A stretch of 64,000 nt of DNA, taken from assembly GCA_903922735.1 (NCBI GenBank), contig CAIXUZ010000062.1:1-64000 (forward strand). Reading direction: 5' to 3'. The DNA comes from an uncultured Verrucomicrobia subdivision 3 bacterium (GTDB lineage Bacteria > Verrucomicrobiota > Verrucomicrobiia > Limisphaerales > UBA11358). The notes below the pieces were generated by a model that was not told the origin of the DNA, did not search any database, and saw nothing but the letters and a program-made list of their open reading frames with translations. Below, piece by piece: positions 982 through 43,446 of this stretch (position 1 is its first letter; each line of letters opens with the position of its first letter). A program made the position numbers and the translations under genes.

Positions 982-2244
982 TTACTCAGTTTTCCTCGGC
1001 ATTACGGCAAACCACTTTTCTGCCTCTGCTTTTGTAGCGAGACCTTTGTAATGCTGATGAATCATGGCTGGCGAATTACCTGCTTGTTGAGCGGTCAGGT
1101 TTTCATTGGCGTGAAGGGCGAAATGGTAGGTGCAGAAAGCGTGACGAAAGCCATTGCGACGAACAGGAATATTAAGTTCATTACGCAAATCAGTAATCGT
1201 CTGATGGAGTGTATCTCTGCATTTGTCGTAAATCAGCCCCTTGCTCTTTTTATATTTTTTAAGCCAAGAAGTCAGAGCAGGGCAGATGCTCACCAATCTG
1301 CGAGAACGAGTCTTTGCTTTTTGCGCCGTGATTTCAATATGGTCTGCAACCTGCCATACATCAGCCCACTCCAGCCTAAATATTTCTTCCTGACGCAATC
1401 CAGCAAGCCCACCCAATGCCAGAACGGGTAGCAGCGATTTGTAATCAGGATTTGTCCGGCAGCGATTCAACATTTTCTGTAGCTCGTTTGGGCGATAAAA
1501 TTCAATATCCTCAATGTCAGCCTTTTCAACAGTCAGGCTTTCGGCTTCCAATAAACGATGGTTTTGTTGCAAGTAGTCACGTTTTACGCACCACTTAAGA
1601 AACATTTTTATGGCACCGCGATAGTGATTTCTGGATTTGGCAGCAAGATCCTTGTGAGTTGCCATGAATACATTGATATGTTCCTTCGTTATTCCTGAAA
1701 CATTTGTTGATGGGAACGACCCTGCAAATTCACGCAACCACAAGGAAACCATGTAGGCATAATTTTTAGATAATTGAGCGCGCTTCCCGTCTTTGGATTC
1801 GGTTAGAAGTTGCCTTTGCCCGATAAATTCTTCAACGGCTTTGGAGACATCCATTTCCTTAACGACCCCTATTGACTGCTGGTATGCGTCAATCACTTCG
1901 CCAAGGTTGCGACCTTTCAGTTTGGCCGATGCATCAGCAAATTCAGACACCGCTGCCAAAAGGGATATACGACGCCCAATTGTGTGCTGTAAAATCGTCA
2001 GGCGCTCGTAGGCTGCGAGAGCATCACTTGACTGGCCGGCGGTGAGGGCAGAAGCAACTGATCCACCATGCAATTCTTCAGCCTTTTTTTCAGCAGCCGC
2101 TTTTGCTTCCGAATATTTGGCAAAGTGCTCCATCTTGCGTTTGCCGGCCACCCGATAAACCAGGCGGTAGAAAGGGTAGGATTTCTTCTTGCCGTAGATT
2201 TTAACCTCGGTTCCGCGATGCGAGATGGTCTTTGGAAACCTCAT
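982..2244 (-). CDS. tyrosine recombinase / phage-type integrase
   Basis: Site-specific recombinase that would integrate and excise the element at the neighbouring tRNA-Gln gene. The chosen start is the ATG at 2244, giving 420 residues; the open frame runs further upstream but reads through the tRNA, so it is not coding there. Residues about 130-235 look like a SAM-like core-binding domain, followed by the catalytic domain. Visible catalytic parts are Arg in GLRQEE, a Lys/Arg-rich beta-hairpin (KAKTRSRR), NGFRHAF in the HxxR region (His replaced by Asn), GNS where many members have GHS, and the nucleophile Tyr in HQHY at about residue 399. Loss of both His residues is probably a subfamily trait rather than decay, because the fold is otherwise intact. 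The gene reads away from the tRNA 3' end, the usual arrangement for tRNA-targeting islands. Confidence 0.9.
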   Translation of the reverse strand: MRFPKTISHRGTEVKIYGKKKSYPFYRLVYRVAGKRKMEHFAKYSEAKAAAEKKAEELHGGSVASALTAGQSSDALAAYERLTILQHTIGRRISLLAAVSEFADASAKLKGRNLGEVIDAYQQSIGVVKEMDVSKAVEEFIGQRQLLTESKDGKRAQLSKNYAYMVSLWLREFAGSFPSTNVSGITKEHINVFMATHKDLAAKSRNHYRGAIKMFLKWCVKRDYLQQNHRLLEAESLTVEKADIEDIEFYRPNELQKMLNRCRTNPDYKSLLPVLALGGLAGLRQEEIFRLEWADVWQVADHIEITAQKAKTRSRRLVSICPALTSWLKKYKKSKGLIYDKCRDTLHQTITDLRNELNIPVRRNGFRHAFCTYHFALHANENLTAQQAGNSPAMIHQHYKGLATKAEAEKWFAVMPRKTE

Positions 2245-2324
2245 TTTGGGGTCCACTAATTCCAGCCCATTCTGTGCGCTATTTGTGCGGGGGTCAAGAA
2301 AACCCTCATTTTCATTTGAAAATG

Positions 2325-2350
2325 TGGTTGTCCGACATGGATTCGAACCA
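2325..2350. other. probable attachment site (tRNA-Gln 3' end)
   Basis: Tyrosine integrases of this type commonly recombine in the T-arm/acceptor end of a tRNA gene and rebuild the tRNA on insertion. The integrase starts 80 nt beyond the tRNA 3' end and the element lies to the left. The matching direct repeat at the far end is not found in the 2.3 kb visible, so it should lie outside the window. Exact ends are inferred. Confidence 0.4.
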
Positions 2351-2398
2351 TGACTAAAGCCTCCAAAGAGCTCTGTGCTACCATTACACCATCGGACA
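2325..2398 (-). tRNA. tRNA-Gln (anticodon TTG)
   Basis: A full cloverleaf can be drawn on the minus strand: acceptor TGTCCGA pairing with TCGGACA, D-arm with GTGTAATGGTAGCAC, anticodon loop CTTTGGA giving TTG, T-arm CATGG-TTCGAAT-CCATG, discriminator A and an encoded CCA at 2327-2325. Length is 74 nt including CCA. Its 3' end faces the integrase gene, with about 80 nt between them, which marks it as the integration target. Confidence 0.93.
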
Positions 2399-2408
2399 AT
2401 GGGTTGAT

Positions 2409-2437
2409 AAAATAGTTTTTTTTCTGCGCCGCGCAAA
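2409..2437 (-). promoter_or_regulatory. weak promoter for tRNA-Gln
   Basis: Reading the minus strand, TATTTT at 2414-2409 lies 10 nt before the tRNA and TTTGCG at 2437-2432 lies 17 nt further upstream. Spacing is ideal but the -35 matches poorly, so this is a guess from position. Confidence 0.3.
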
Positions 2438-7029: not shown

Positions 7030-8415
7030 TCATTTTACCTCATCGAGCAGATATTCTTCCAGCCGCGTATGCCGAATCACGTTGCGAACGGAATTGATGG
7101 GATTGATGAATTTCAGCGTAATCTCGCGCCGCTTCAGGTTTTTCTTGAAACGCAGCATCAGGCCGATGCCCGTGCTGTCCACAAACCTCACCCGCGACAG
7201 ATCAATCACGACGGTCGTGTCTGGCGCGGCTTGCGTCAGTTCGGATTCTGTGTATGCCCCCAGTTCGACCGCGTTGAGTGCCGTCACTTCGCCGCTCCAG
7301 CGGATGTGAAGCTCCTTTTGCTGCAGCCCGCTGGTGACCAACGGTGTCTTGGCCGAGCTTTCCATCATGATCCGCGCGCCGGTCACACTGGTCTGAATGT
7401 TGAAAAATTCATCCAGCTTCATCAGTTTCAGCGCCGCCTCCACCGGCGGCCGGGGCATGATCAGGAAAAAGTGATGGTCCAGCTCGCGGGCGCGCTTGCG
7501 CAGCCGGATAAGCACGCCAATGCCGGTGCTGTCCACAAACTGGGTGTTGCCCATGTCGAACATGACGTGGCCGTTTTCCACAGCCCGCTGCCATTCAGAC
7601 TTTGCCGACTGGGCTTCCGCCGCGCCGAGGCGGACGGGCGAGTGGATGAGAAAATTGCCGTAAGGATCGGGCAGCACATCGGCCTCCGGCCCCGGCAGCA
7701 CCGATTTCTTCATCCGCAGGCACCACCACTGCCGCAGGATGGCAAAGCCGAATTTCACCCGGTTATTCCAGTTGCCAGCCGGGCGGCGGCTGACCGTGCC
7801 GGTTAAAAAATCAAACGCGGTCCCCGCGCCAAGGACAAATGGCACGCCGGCCTCGCGATAGTTCATGTTGATCCATTTTTCCTGCTTGGGACAACCGAAC
7901 GAGACCAGCAGGATCTCCGGCCGCGCCTCGCGCAGCCGACGCAGGATGTCTGCGTGTTCCATCTCCAGCAGTGGCCGTTCGGGCGGCGCAAACGCGCCGA
8001 CCACTTGCAGGCGCGGATGCCGGGCGCGAATATTCGCCGCCACCGCCTCGTTTGCGCCGAGAAAATACACGCGCCAGTTTTTTGCCTCCGCGAGCATCAA
8101 CAACTCTGGAATGATACTGGGCACGGTGACGCTTTTCGGCAGCGGATTGCCCAGCAGGCTTGAAGACCGGACAATGAGCGCATCTTCCGCCAGCACGAGG
8201 TGGGCGTCAAACAGGATGCGCCGCAGTTCCACGTCCTGCTGCGCCGCGAGGAGAAAACCTACGCCCACCGTCGTGCCGTAATGCGGCCGGCCGGAGGCAA
8301 TCATGCCGGATATGATGTCCAGTGCCCCGGCCAGGGAGACGTTGTCAAACGGCACGCCGAGAATGGCAATCGGCGCGTGGTCGGCAGGTGATGCTGGGGA
8401 TGTTTCTGGCATCAT
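7030..8415 (-). CDS. GT26 (WecG/TagA/CpsF) glycosyltransferase fused to two STAS domains
   Basis: A 461-residue fusion. Residues about 15-215 match the WecG/TagA/CpsF glycosyltransferase fold: conserved SFGCPKQEKW (about 172-181), GAGTAFDFLTG (196-206), RRPAGNW, and RQWW before the domain end. GT26 enzymes add ManNAc(A)-type or related sugars to lipid-linked intermediates at the inner membrane. Residues about 258-352 and 366-461 are two STAS domains, each with the phosphoacceptor motif DSTGIG (295-300 and 413-418). In the N-terminal part the usual Thr-x-Asn reads TVG and the usual PDG reads AEDA, so Thr and Asp are retained but the context is changed. It is the last gene of a partner-switching operon, 49 nt after the response regulator. 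Inference: polysaccharide synthesis controlled by reversible STAS phosphorylation. Confidence 0.85.
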   Translation of the reverse strand: MMPETSPASPADHAPIAILGVPFDNVSLAGALDIISGMIASGRPHYGTTVGVGFLLAAQQDVELRRILFDAHLVLAEDALIVRSSSLLGNPLPKSVTVPSIIPELLMLAEAKNWRVYFLGANEAVAANIRARHPRLQVVGAFAPPERPLLEMEHADILRRLREARPEILLVSFGCPKQEKWINMNYREAGVPFVLGAGTAFDFLTGTVSRRPAGNWNNRVKFGFAILRQWWCLRMKKSVLPGPEADVLPDPYGNFLIHSPVRLGAAEAQSAKSEWQRAVENGHVMFDMGNTQFVDSTGIGVLIRLRKRARELDHHFFLIMPRPPVEAALKLMKLDEFFNIQTSVTGARIMMESSAKTPLVTSGLQQKELHIRWSGEVTALNAVELGAYTESELTQAAPDTTVVIDLSRVRFVDSTGIGLMLRFKKNLKRREITLKFINPINSVRNVIRHTRLEEYLLDEVK

Positions 8416-8464
8416 TCAAAAACTGTTAGCAGCCTGCCGGGCATTGTCCAAGTTAATAAAAAAA

Positions 8465-8854
8465 TCATTTCGCCGGCGATTCGAGGATTTTCCGCACTTC
8501 GCCAAGGAGCTGGTTCGGGCTGAAAGGCTTGGTCAGAAACAGTGCGGCCCCGGCCAGTTCGGCCTCGACCTTGGTGAGGGCGTGGCCCTTGGCGGAAAGC
8601 ACGACGACGGGAATGTCTTTCGTCGTCAGATTTTCTTTCAACTGCCGGAGCGCGCCGAGACCGTCGAGGTCGGGCATCATCACGTCCAGCACGATGAGCT
8701 GTGGTCGTGCGGTGGCGGCGGTGGCGAGCGCCTCCCGGCCGTCGCGGCAACTGACAATTTCGTAGCCGCCTTTCTTGAACGTCAGTTCGAGCAGGCGGAT
8801 CATGAAGATTTCGTCGTCGGCAATCAGGATTTTGGCGGGGCTGGTGGGGTTCAT
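8465..8854 (-). CDS. single-domain response regulator
   Basis: A 129-residue CheY-like receiver with no output domain. The acidic pair is in IADDE (13-14), the phospho-acceptor Asp57 is in LIVLDVMMPD, the switch Ser87 is in VVVLSAKG, and Lys109 is in LTKPF. The ATG at 8854 overlaps the stop of the upstream PP2C gene (ATGA), so its synthesis is probably coupled to it. Being in a STAS/PP2C operon, it probably links a histidine kinase elsewhere to the phosphatase or the STAS proteins by contact; no histidine kinase is encoded here. Confidence 0.92.
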   Translation of the reverse strand: MNPTSPAKILIADDEIFMIRLLELTFKKGGYEIVSCRDGREALATAATARPQLIVLDVMMPDLDGLGALRQLKENLTTKDIPVVVLSAKGHALTKVEAELAGAALFLTKPFSPNQLLGEVRKILESPAK

Positions 8855-10638
8855 GCAAGGTGGCGGATAAAAATTAACGTCTGGTCGTCGGTGGGCGGCG
8901 CGTGGTCGCAAAAATCTGCCAGCCGTCGGAGCAGAAAATGTTTTCCCGCGTGTGCGTCGCCAGTGTGGGCGGCGGCCTGGGTGAGCAGCTGGAGCAGTGT
9001 TTTTTCGCCGAGCATTTCCCCGGCGGCATTGCGCGTTTCGGTCAGGCCGTCCGTGTAAAGCAGGGCCGCCGCACCGGGCGGCAGGGGCGTTACCGTCTGC
9101 GGGTATTTGACGTCCTGCTCGATGCCCAGCGGAAAGCCGGACTGGCCGGGCGCGTTGGCCTGCGCCGCACCGGGCTGCCACACGAGCAGCGGACAATGAC
9201 CGGCGCTGGCGGAAATGATTTCCTGCCGTTGCGGGTTGAGATAAGCGACTTTTGCCGTGGCGAACATATCCACGCGCGACAAGTCGGAATACAGCGTGCG
9301 GTTGGCCGAGCCAAGCAGCTCGCCGGGCTTTGAAAACAACTGGGGCATTGAACGGATGGTGCTGCGCAGCACCGCCGCGAACAGCGCCGCCGGCACGCCC
9401 TTGCCCATCACGTCGGCAATGACCAGCAGCACCGTGCCGTCGGTGGTGGAAATGAGGTCGTAAAAATCCCCGCCCACCTGCAATGCGCTCTGGCACGCCG
9501 CCGACAACTCGAACGGCCGGCAGGCGGGAACCGTTTCCGGCAGTAGCGAGCGCTGGATTTCCGCGGCGATTTCCAGTTCGCGCCGCGTCACATGCGTGGC
9601 GGTGCGTTCGTTGAGCAGCCGGGCATTGACGATTTGAATCGCCAGAAAATCAATGAAGGTGTGCAGCAGGTTCACCTGCGCGGCGGTGAACGGCTTGTCC
9701 GCCGCGAACCGGCCCAGCGCCGCCGTGCCCACCAGCTGGTCCGCCACGACAAAGGCGTGGCAGATGCCATTGCCCACCGGCATGACCGCGCGGAGCGGGT
9801 CATCCTTGTCCAGCGGCTCTGTGGGATCAAACCAGATGTCCTGACGGTTGCGCGCCGAGCCGACTTCCACGGAGGATAAATCACCCGCCAGCTCGACTGG
9901 CGGCAAAATCAGCCGGCCCGGCTCCGGCAGCACCAGGAGGGTTTCCAGTCTTTTGCCATCGGCGGAAAGCAGCCGCAACACGGCGGAATCCGCCTCGGCA
10001 ATCTGCATCAGGTCGCGCAGCAGCCGCCGTGAAAAATCCTTCACGTCCGTGTGCGCGCCGAGTTCCGCGCTGTAACGGAACATCGCTACCAGACTTTCGT
10101 AGCTCGACGCCAGTTCAGCCGTCATGTCGGTCAATGCCGCCTCGGCCTCGGCTAGCCGGGCCTGCAACCGGTCCGCGTCCGGCAATGATTCTTTCTCCGC
10201 CGCCGGCCGCGCCCGGCGCATCACCAAGACATTCTGGCCGGAATGACGCAGGTAAGTGACGCTGTCGGTCAGTGATTTGATGAGAAACAAACCGCGGCCG
10301 CTTTCCGACTCCAGGTCTGGCAATTTGACTTCACTGGGCCAGTCAAAACCCGGCGTATGGTCGGTGATGCGCGCTTCGACTTCGCGTTCACCGCAGGAGA
10401 TTTCTATTTCGATCGGCAGTGGGTGCGAACCCGCAACGGTATATTTTACCGCGTTGTTCCCGGCCTCGACGAGCGCCAGTTCCCAAGCGCCAAGTTCGGC
10501 TTCGGGCAGACTTTTCTCCGCCAGCCACTCGCGCAACTGCAGTGTGGCGTTACGGACGGCGGTGAATTCGCAGGGTATTTCAATCCGGAGGGAACTCCGA
10601 AAATCGCGGCGCAGGGTGCTGATGGAGTTGGAATTCAA
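8851..10638 (-). CDS. anti-sigma-type kinase, GAF and PP2C/SpoIIE phosphatase in one protein
   Basis: A 595-residue regulator of the partner-switching class. Residues 20-140 are an RsbW/SpoIIAB-like HATPase (N-box EAGNNAVKY at 58-66, G1 DHTPGF at 93-98, G2 SGRGLFL at 113-119). Residues about 150-185 form a coiled coil, 195-345 a GAF domain, and 375-593 a SpoIIE-type PP2C phosphatase with metal ligands in GGDFYD (389-394), DVMGKG (409-414), YTDGLTE (528-534) and TDDQT (583-587). The kinase-like and phosphatase domains normally act in opposite directions on STAS proteins and are usually separate polypeptides. The start is a TTG at 10638 overlapping the STAS gene stop (TTGA). Its likely substrates are the three STAS domains encoded in the same operon. 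Confidence 0.92.
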   Translation of the reverse strand: MNSNSISTLRRDFRSSLRIEIPCEFTAVRNATLQLREWLAEKSLPEAELGAWELALVEAGNNAVKYTVAGSHPLPIEIEISCGEREVEARITDHTPGFDWPSEVKLPDLESESGRGLFLIKSLTDSVTYLRHSGQNVLVMRRARPAAEKESLPDADRLQARLAEAEAALTDMTAELASSYESLVAMFRYSAELGAHTDVKDFSRRLLRDLMQIAEADSAVLRLLSADGKRLETLLVLPEPGRLILPPVELAGDLSSVEVGSARNRQDIWFDPTEPLDKDDPLRAVMPVGNGICHAFVVADQLVGTAALGRFAADKPFTAAQVNLLHTFIDFLAIQIVNARLLNERTATHVTRRELEIAAEIQRSLLPETVPACRPFELSAACQSALQVGGDFYDLISTTDGTVLLVIADVMGKGVPAALFAAVLRSTIRSMPQLFSKPGELLGSANRTLYSDLSRVDMFATAKVAYLNPQRQEIISASAGHCPLLVWQPGAAQANAPGQSGFPLGIEQDVKYPQTVTPLPPGAAALLYTDGLTETRNAAGEMLGEKTLLQLLTQAAAHTGDAHAGKHFLLRRLADFCDHAPPTDDQTLIFIRHLA

Positions 10639-10934
10639 GGTGCGAACTCAAAGATTTTGTCAAGGTGCAGCCGTTCGAGCAACTGGCGCACGAGCGGCAA
10701 CGGCTGCCGTAATCGCACCCTGCCGCCTTGCGGCGCGATCCATTTGTGGATGCAGATCAACGCGCCCAGCCCGTCGCTGTCAAGGAAACGGATTGTCGCG
10801 CAGTCAATTTCCACTACCCGGCACGCGTCCGTCAGGTGCGGTTTGATGAGCTGCTTGAACTCCGCGCCGTTGCCGGCGCTCAATCGCTCCAACTCGGTCA
10901 CGCGCACATATTCGTTGTCCACCAGGATGTTCAT
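10635..10934 (-). CDS. STAS-domain anti-sigma factor antagonist
   Basis: A 99-residue SpoIIAA/RsbV-like protein when started at the ATG at 10934 (an upstream in-frame start would add seven residues). The phosphoacceptor Ser53 is in LDSDGLG. In the partner-switch mechanism the unphosphorylated form binds the HATPase kinase, and phosphorylation releases it. It is the first gene of the four-gene minus-strand operon and overlaps the kinase/phosphatase gene by 4 nt. No sigma factor gene is visible in the operon. Confidence 0.9.
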   Translation of the reverse strand: MNILVDNEYVRVTELERLSAGNGAEFKQLIKPHLTDACRVVEIDCATIRFLDSDGLGALICIHKWIAPQGGRVRLRQPLPLVRQLLERLHLDKIFEFAP

Positions 10935-42237: not shown

Positions 42238-43446
42238 TCACCGATTCAACCGCAGGCGGATGCGATCCTTTTTTAGCTCATCGCCCTGCAACTTGTCGGC
42301 GGTTTGGAGCAATGTCGCGTCTTTCCAGTTTACGCCCGCCGAGAGAATAAGCGGATAAAGCGACTCGCTTTTGTAGCCTTGAATCTCCTGATACCCCCAT
42401 TTTTTTGCCGGGTCGGAAAACTGGGCGACAAAGTTGAATGCCTTTCGCAGGCTGCGACCGTCTGGCGTGGTGTAATTCCAAAGATCCACGCCGGCATGTT
42501 GTCCGGCCGTGGCGAGCTGGAAGAAGGCTTCCAGATTGAAGACGGAATAATGGAACGACTTGGTGCGCTTCAGTTCAAGCGGCATGCGTCCGTCAGGCTC
42601 AACTTGGGCGGCGATTTGCGCTTTGCCGGATTCGGCCAGGGTTTTGCCGACCTCCGAGCGGTTTACAAACAGGGCGTAGGTAGACGCTTGGGCGGCAAAC
42701 CAGACGCCATGGTTGTTCTTGGCGCGCTGCTCCAGCTTGCCTTTTTCACTGTTGAGCAGCCAATCGGCATATTGGCCAAACCAGGCCTTAAGCCCCTTCA
42801 AATCCTCGGGCGTGAGGCTTTTTGATCCGGAAAGCAGGGTGATGGCATCAGGAATTCCGATCATGCCCACGGTGTCAATGATGCCGGTGCCGGTGACCTT
42901 GTCGCGTCCGGGATTGACTTGGGCATAGTTGAGGTTCGGATTCATCCGGGTTGCCGGATCCAGATACCATGTTTTCAGGAGAGTCGTGGCGTGACCGGCA
43001 TAGGCTTCGTCACCGGAAAAGTAGTAAGCCAGTGCGAGAATTTCGATGGCTTTAAATATTTTTCCCGCCCGGCCCGGGTCGTAGGCATCCGTCGAGCGTT
43101 CGGGATTGGATACCCCGTCTTTGCTGATGTAGGGCAGCCCGTTGGGAGTGTTTGGATTTGGCCAATAATAAGGTCCGATGGAATAGAAATCGTGCTTGTC
43201 GCCGCTGGCCGGAGTTTTGGTTTTATCCATCACACTGGCCGGCTGGACGGTCATGGCTTTTTGCGCATCGCGCAGCAGCCTATCATAAGCCGGCTTGAGT
43301 GGACTGTTCCCGGCGTGGACGGACTCACGGGCCTGGGCGAGCGAGCCTGCATTCATCAGGATTAAATCCAGTTTTGCCTCGGCTGCGGGGCCGGCCGTGA
43401 CCAGTCCCATGAGCGTTAGGGCAAGCATGAGGGAATAATATTTCAT
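42238..43446 (-). CDS. secreted alginate-lyase-family protein
   Basis: 402 residues with a signal peptide (ending GPAAEA). The Alginate_lyase (PF05426-type) alpha-toroid signature is visible: HDFYSIGPYYWPNP, LNYAQVNPGRD, KNNHGVWF (with the family Asn-His pair) and YPLILSAG. Families of this fold (PL5, PL38 and relatives) cleave alginate or glucuronan-type chains; the exact substrate cannot be decided from sequence. It is divergently arranged with the giant beta-helix gene, which begins 262 nt away, so both may share control. Confidence 0.88.
   Translation of the reverse strand: MKYYSLMLALTLMGLVTAGPAAEAKLDLILMNAGSLAQARESVHAGNSPLKPAYDRLLRDAQKAMTVQPASVMDKTKTPASGDKHDFYSIGPYYWPNPNTPNGLPYISKDGVSNPERSTDAYDPGRAGKIFKAIEILALAYYFSGDEAYAGHATTLLKTWYLDPATRMNPNLNYAQVNPGRDKVTGTGIIDTVGMIGIPDAITLLSGSKSLTPEDLKGLKAWFGQYADWLLNSEKGKLEQRAKNNHGVWFAAQASTYALFVNRSEVGKTLAESGKAQIAAQVEPDGRMPLELKRTKSFHYSVFNLEAFFQLATAGQHAGVDLWNYTTPDGRSLRKAFNFVAQFSDPAKKWGYQEIQGYKSESLYPLILSAGVNWKDATLLQTADKLQGDELKKDRIRLRLNR

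Follow-up and report, generated by a model that had tools for sequence, protein, structure and literature searches.

What does a partner-switching operon regulate when its last gene joins a glycosyltransferase to two STAS domains? The question is raised by the window analysed here, a 64,000-nucleotide stretch of contig CAIXUZ010000062.1 (C62) from the genome (4.48 Mb in 82 contigs) of an uncultured Verrucomicrobia subdivision 3 bacterium. Its minus strand encodes in succession a STAS protein, a HATPase-GAF-PP2C protein, a single-domain response regulator and a fusion of a GT26 glycosyltransferase with two STAS domains (Table 1). A first-pass annotation had described four overlapping or closely spaced minus-strand genes, a layout borne out by the Pfam search, with overlaps of a few bases at the STAS/HATPase and HATPase/response regulator junctions and a gap of about 50 bases before the GT26 gene. 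We consider the fusion probably to be a pseudo-glycosyltransferase that has been retained for its STAS domains and is switched by phosphorylation; the operon as a whole would be what is left, on the regulatory side, of an exopolysaccharide system minus its exopolysaccharide genes. Recycling of an enzyme as a signalling protein is suggested because the sugar cluster and the catalytic residues have been lost, while the parts of the switch are kept.

Loss of catalytic residues and selection in the GT26 domain

In the GT26 enzyme TagA the pocket is lined by Thr37, Asn39, Asp65, Arg83, Gln167 and Glu168, an Asp65Ala substitution gives a rate of 0.052 as against 1.5 uM/min, and a C-terminal appendage is needed for activity and membrane association, TagA without the appendage being inactive (PMC6493773). 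In an alignment with TagA the window protein keeps the positions of Thr37, Gln167 (Gln178) and Glu168 (Glu179), whereas Gly, Glu and Ser occupy those of Asn39, Asp65 and Arg83, respectively (Table 1). The appendage stretch RAPxWMQ..EWxFRMLQEPxRL..RY is absent and its last helix (model residues 215–233) remains. What the domain retains is thus a GT26 fold (PF03808, well predicted), and what it lacks are Asp65, Arg83 and the appendage arginines.

The window protein shares this eroded form with others of its genus. The GT26 alignment comprises 129 distinct rows (141 before duplicate removal), and N, D and R are all kept in 113 of the 117 rows outside the eroded group, the four exceptions being L088 (Arg only), L093, L128 and L129. 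Within the group, which accounts for 12 of the 48 genomes of the genus (G000, G289, G291, G294, G302, G305, G307, G313, G314, G316, G324 and G329), all three residues are lost in 11 rows, with Gly or a gap at the Asp65 position in eroded rows other than that of the window and an in-frame gap spanning the Asp65 and Arg83 region in L109. In the milder case, L108 (G289), the N, D and R letters are retained, ADG has become ADS, Leu replaces Thr37 and the PKQE motif is altered. The appendage arginines are absent from all 12 rows, and each of the 12 genes is a single open frame. An assembly artefact as the origin of the eroded form is ruled out, 12 separate genomes carrying it. Further eroded GT26 lines in which STAS is kept occur in other families of the phylum (L128/L129 in G145 and G165 and, in part, L093 in G157); their erosion is apparently independent of that in the window clade.

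Codon models estimate omega, the ratio of nonsynonymous to synonymous rates (dN/dS), at 0.052 in canonical and 0.129 in eroded GT26 domains, and at 0.115 in the STAS part of both groups. Counted dN/dS values in GT26, for which synonymous sites are near saturation, range over 0.04–0.06 in four canonical pairs and 0.09–0.21 in four eroded pairs. Identity between canonical pairs is 84.4% in GT26 and 55.0% in STAS, the corresponding values for eroded pairs being 67.5% and 72.1%. Taken together, omega and pairwise identity indicate an eroded GT26 domain that is relaxed yet not drifting: its constraint is lowered about 2.5-fold and is still purifying, and constraint on the STAS part is unchanged.

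Table 1. Coordinates of the operon genes, their domains and the eroded GT26 motifs, in window positions
Feature	Position	Strand	Remarks
STAS gene	10635-10934	-	99 aa from ATG; PF01740 9.6e-11; phosphoacceptor candidate Ser53 in FLDSDGLG
HATPase-GAF-PP2C gene	8851-10638	-	start TTG; RsbW-type kinase and phosphatase within one protein
HATPase_c_2 domain	~10216-10569	-	PF13581 2.1e-22
GAF-like domain	~9631-10041	-	7.4e-4, 20.5 bits, just under the Pfam cut-off of 22.4
SpoIIE/PP2C domain	~8860-9441	-	PF07228 6.4e-46
Single-domain response regulator	8465-8854	-	129 aa; Pfam 2.3e-25; receiver Asp in LDVMMPD
GT26-STAS-STAS fusion, eroded (short) form	7030-8415	-	461 aa; GT26 PF03808 2.1e-33
Residues 46-54, YGTTVGVGF	8254-8280	-	Thr49 (TagA Thr37) kept; Gly51 in Asn39 position
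Residues 73-82, LVLAEDALIV	8170-8199	-	Glu77 in position of catalytic base Asp65; genus canonical LADGMPIV
Residues 94-101, KSVTVPSI	8113-8136	-	Ser95 in Arg83 position; canonical ERVTGS
C-terminal appendage remnant	7700-7797	-	~22 residues shorter than genus canonical forms (71 vs 92-94)
STAS 1 of fusion	7366-7632	-	phosphoacceptor candidate Ser296 (DSTG)
STAS 2 of fusion	7039-7332	-	phosphoacceptor candidate Ser414 (DSTG)

Switch genes and exopolysaccharide clusters among relatives

Elements of a partner switch are recognisable in the operon: a HATPase_c_2 kinase, STAS domains with a serine and a PP2C/SpoIIE phosphatase. A D-S motif is present in the lone STAS protein and in both STAS domains of the fusion, for each of which the phosphoacceptor Ser is found in 51 of 52 aligned rows; the two domains have Pfam matches to PF01740 (1.5e-24) and PF13466 (2.8e-21), and STAS domains match the structures of RsbV and SpoIIAA. 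Across 22 aligned rows the E, N, D and G residues of the kinase N-box and G-box motifs are invariant or nearly so, and the metal-binding Asp residues of PP2C are kept in 95 to 100%. The operon HATPase tops the PF13581 matches of its own genome by far (4.4e-23, the next of 14 being 2.3e-8), and of four STAS matches genome-wide three lie within the operon, the fourth being a stand-alone STAS protein on contig C6.

Presence of the HATPase gene follows that of the fusion. The HATPase-GAF-PP2C gene was sought, at E up to 1e-60, in 79 genomes (48 of the genus, G000 included, and 31 of the order), and was found in 20 of the 22 fusion-bearing genomes of the genus as against none of the 26 without a fusion (Fisher 1.4e-11). 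It occurs in 11 of 12 eroded and 9 of 10 canonical genomes, and was not found in G289 and G303. Among the 26 are G308 and G310, in which a close GT26 relative is encoded without STAS (L122, L126) and the HATPase gene is missing too. The link is weaker at the level of the order, with the gene in 5 of 6 fusion genomes and 4 of 25 others (p 0.004). All eight canonical genomes opened at this place have a STAS gene next to that for the HATPase, and in 13 of 15 loci of relatives it comes first (exceptions L143 and L144; the gap in L135 is about 100 bases). The response regulator gene of relatives follows the HATPase gene as it does in the window, and at L101, L102, L104, L105 and L106 a STAS gene was not found. 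The recurring neighbours of the eroded genes are the HATPase-GAF-PP2C gene, the response regulator, a hybrid histidine kinase (in four of the 12 genomes), the STAS gene, an MFS transporter (in three of the 12) and a few pairs. The hybrid histidine kinase stands beside the HATPase-GAF-PP2C or the response regulator gene (L101:11398-14724, L103:8930-12313, L105:10625-13957, L143:8262-11657), has MASE1, PAS, HisKA, receiver and Hpt domains in L101, and may be the partner with which the response regulator works.

The canonical form is present in 10 genomes of the genus (L110-L119), and canonical relatives lie in exopolysaccharide clusters. Neighbours were scanned against Pfam in L110, L112, L118 and L135, together with two genes near L116, which encode LepA and a GH97 protein. 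A GT4 gene lies directly downstream of the fusion in L110, L118 and L135; an AAA_22 ATPase and Poly_export/SLBB proteins are found near it in L110 and L112, and Wzy_C, a MatE or Polysacc_synt flippase and further GT2/GT4 genes near L110 and L135. In G292 (L112) the STAS, HATPase-GAF-PP2C and response regulator genes are directly beside the fusion, and in G301, G334 and G290 they are found some 9 to 12 kb upstream on the same strand, the intervening genes being mostly polysaccharide genes (in G290, and in part in G334). The HATPase-PP2C, response regulator, GT4 and GT26-STAS genes are also grouped together in Rubritalea (L265). STAS control of polysaccharide synthesis is supported at the family level because canonical gene order links the switch with the cluster. 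Also in Rubritalea marina DSM 17716 (L265:6492-8027), a hexapeptide-repeat protein that likewise ends in a STAS domain is encoded beside the switch, a sugar transferase and the GT26-STAS protein, and is a second polysaccharide-cluster protein with STAS.

The clusters encode a large export protein, and with the Poly_export protein of L112 (1058 aa) as query, at E up to 1e-40, a homologue is found in all 10 canonical genomes, on the same contig as the fusion and no more than about 2.1 kb from it, and in none of the 12 eroded genomes, that of the window included (Fisher 1.5e-6). G308 and G310 also hold it. In G299 and G319 the match is limited to the N-terminal portion of the query, the Poly_export region being absent; these homologues are about 690 aa long, and that of G319 (L118:9602-11677) has no Pfam match. 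No exopolysaccharide cluster was seen near the window operon among six neighbours and 10 further window proteins. The second GT26 protein of the genome (254 aa, contig C14, without STAS) adjoins an exosortase, a DUF3485 protein and a bacterial sugar transferase, and belongs to a different polysaccharide system.

Beyond the genus, GT26-STAS fusions form a widespread Verrucomicrobiota family. A phylum search of 288 genomes gave matches in 167, the weaker ones covering the GT26 part only; of 60 loci opened, 57 encode GT26-STAS or GT26-STAS-STAS (L071, L122 and L126 are without STAS). All of the 80 best named loci, taken by score from at least 559 relatives, hold GT26 and STAS, in L278 in different frames. 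The share of fusions is biased upward because best-scoring loci were chosen; with many relatives carrying it, the fusion is nonetheless not unique to the window, and these fusion loci and the co-occurrence of the HATPase gene rule out a chance meeting of domains. The nearest named relatives are metagenome-assembled genomes of Limisphaerales / Verrucomicrobia subdivision 3 (best 70% identity, PLYV01000028.1), and the cultured R. marina strain is also among the named ones. A record named for the gammaproteobacterium Luteimonas panaciterrae (L274:8923-11151) holds a GT26-STAS-STAS fusion outside the phylum, which suggests transfer between phyla.

Proposed switching, history of the locus and competing explanations

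We infer that the window GT26 domain is catalytically dead, and that phosphorylation, binding partners and output would be arranged as follows. In the canonical relatives, serines of the stand-alone STAS proteins and of both GT26-linked STAS domains would receive phosphate from the HATPase domain and lose it to the PP2C domain, and the GAF domain and response regulator would feed signals into the switch; STAS phosphorylation would thereby control the lipid-linked sugar-transfer step of an active GT26. In the window lineage GT26 would have become a pseudo-glycosyltransferase that kept its fold and lost its catalytic residues and most of its appendage. An RsbW/RsbV/RsbU-type cycle likely acts both on the lone STAS protein and on the fusion, which is most likely a STAS adaptor or antagonist that binds, or competes for, the HATPase domain or another target. 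The output would thus be sugar transfer in the canonical relatives and probably protein binding in the window. Direct control of sugar transfer by phosphorylation of the enzyme's own STAS domains, as the first-pass annotation had proposed, is supported at the level of the family, where several clusters come with switch genes, the STAS serines are kept, and G308 and G310 lack STAS and HATPase together; for this locus it probably fails, in view of the lost residues and the export protein that was not found.

The history of the GT26 domain appears to differ from that of its surroundings. All 12 eroded rows fall into one clade of the GT26 tree (support 96/89), a clade less well supported once the motif columns are dropped (79/61; 73% of bootstrap trees), and even without these columns a sister relation of L099 and L111 is rejected (p 0.0026). 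On the STAS part, in contrast, it is the grouping of all eroded rows in one clade that is rejected (p 0.00012). Eroded and canonical rows are mixed in the LepA+PrfA tree (approximately unbiased test, p 7e-97, with five of 28 rows less than half filled, G302 included, and groups named after other results had been seen), and the STAS and HATPase trees mix them as well. Convergence as the origin of the shared losses was set aside, the GT26 tree uniting all 12 rows. G301 and G302, which the LepA+PrfA, STAS and HATPase trees all place as sisters, carry different forms. Specifically, L099 and L111 are 60% identical over the GT26 domain and, after a rise near residue 240, 81% identical over the STAS part, and the GT26 domain of L099 is 74% identical to that of the window. 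The GT26 part has thus presumably been exchanged between genomes by recombination, and duplication followed by gene conversion and loss may be an alternative history. Tentatively, the genus may hold two exchangeable versions of the locus, an active GT26-STAS-STAS with its exopolysaccharide cluster and a pseudo-glycosyltransferase-STAS-STAS without it, swapped by recombination near the GT26/STAS boundary, the pseudoenzyme being retained as a partner-switch signalling protein with a second output.

Several observations weigh against a pseudoenzyme kept for signalling. Since the eroded GT26 domains form one clade, they do not amount to 12 independent losses. The loss of Asn39 alone is weak evidence, because this residue is not universal and the presumably active C14 GT26 has another in its place, and Glu may serve as base instead of Asp. 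Seven of the 11 eroded HATPase loci have no STAS gene adjacent (four do, the window among them), so that the lone STAS protein is not a fixed part of the system, and only six of the 12 eroded genomes show the fusion adjoining the HATPase and response regulator genes; in several of the remaining six it sits on a short contig. No candidate for an output is seen among the recurring neighbours beside the eroded genes in the 12 genomes. Moreover, these genomes are drafts, 69 to 96% complete (66 to 97% across the genus), and absence of the export gene is therefore weak evidence for any single one of them. Finally, an omega of 0.13 could also fit an enzyme with changed substrates. A GT26 domain still active, perhaps as a re-specialised sugar transferase, and controlled through its own STAS domains would agree with the three pocket positions kept, with the well-predicted fold under purifying selection, with the place of the canonical relatives in exopolysaccharide clusters, and with Glu77/Asp78 as a possible base. 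It is nevertheless an improbable account of the window protein: Arg83 is lost together with most of an appendage that TagA needs for activity, the place of the base is taken by Gly or a gap in other eroded rows, all 12 genomes lack a detectable export protein, and constraint was relaxed in GT26 and not in STAS.

Hardly better placed, and unlikely in its own right, is a conventional partner switch in which the HATPase would sequester a sigma factor whose gene lies elsewhere and the fusion would be one more anti-anti-sigma protein. The HATPase_c_2, STAS and SpoIIE domains are typical of RsbW/RsbV/RsbU systems, the structural matches to RsbV and SpoIIAA point the same way, and a sigma factor would supply an output in genomes without exopolysaccharide genes; against this, the canonical relatives have the module linked with an exopolysaccharide cluster, and no sigma factor is found among the six neighbours and 10 further window proteins, a genome-wide search not having been made. 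A switch of this kind is compatible with a pseudoenzyme, and could be its output. That the gene is instead a remnant without present function, heading for loss after deletion of the exopolysaccharide cluster, would fit the lost catalytic motifs and appendage and the gap in L109, and is very improbable given the 12 open frames, the omega values of 0.13 and 0.115 for GT26 and STAS, and a HATPase gene in 11 of the 12 genomes. If the fusion is indeed a pseudo-glycosyltransferase retained for signalling, partner switches can be wired directly onto enzymes that build surface polysaccharide, and the relatives show the outcome of polysaccharide gene loss, in which the catalytic residues go and the signalling part stays. 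Natural pairs of active and inactive forms (L111 and L099; G301 and G302) would then serve to study how STAS phosphorylation controls a glycosyltransferase, and also to find other things that the switch controls.

Comparison with known systems and further features of the window

No paper on a GT26-STAS protein, canonical or eroded, was found in the open-licence PMC literature. The window fusion differs from the GT26 proteins TagA/TarA, WecG and CpsF in having lost Asp65, Asn39, Arg83 and most of the appendage and in having two STAS domains added. SypE/SypA resembles the canonical relatives in that its switch too is linked to an exopolysaccharide locus; at the window no such locus is seen among the six neighbours and 10 further proteins. 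SypE carries an inner receiver between kinase and phosphatase, whereas the kinase/phosphatase of the window has a GAF-like middle domain and the receiver is a separate gene; unlike SypA, a lone STAS protein, STAS is here also part of the GT26 protein. In the syp locus of Vibrio fischeri a serine kinase/phosphatase acts on a STAS protein, which promotes biofilm when unphosphorylated, and switches at polysaccharide loci include both SypA/SypE and HmpU/V/W (PMC8256260, PMC10120452). A SypA-type gene is likewise described in eps clusters of Vibrionaceae (PMC5801674).

The statement in the first-pass annotation that no system of this layout had been described was too strong. SiaABCD, HsbA-HsbD and BgrV-BgrR are partner switches with an enzyme rather than a sigma factor as output (PMC8457831), and a review mentions Anabaena all4160 as a glycosyltransferase with a STAS domain (PMC8256260), the gene being named among those for heterocyst envelope polysaccharide (PMC4390870). 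STAS or SiaC binds a diguanylate cyclase in trans in the former systems, whereas here STAS is covalently joined to an (eroded) glycosyltransferase; in all4160 STAS is N-terminal, unlike in the present fusion, and the likeness lies in the joining of a glycosyltransferase to STAS. The annotation had also called for a search for GT26 proteins with C-terminal STAS domains and a look at their neighbours; such proteins form the family described above, with its canonical members in exopolysaccharide clusters.

A scan of promoter-like and terminator-like sequences gave one match to the former, against a shuffle mean of 1.1, and eight to the latter, against 5.2, counts that carry no information on either kind of signal. 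Elsewhere in the window, a phage integrase family protein (982-2436, minus strand) is encoded about 4.6 kb from the operon, and an alginate lyase family protein (42238-43446, minus strand) adjoins a 1750-aa PKD-domain protein.

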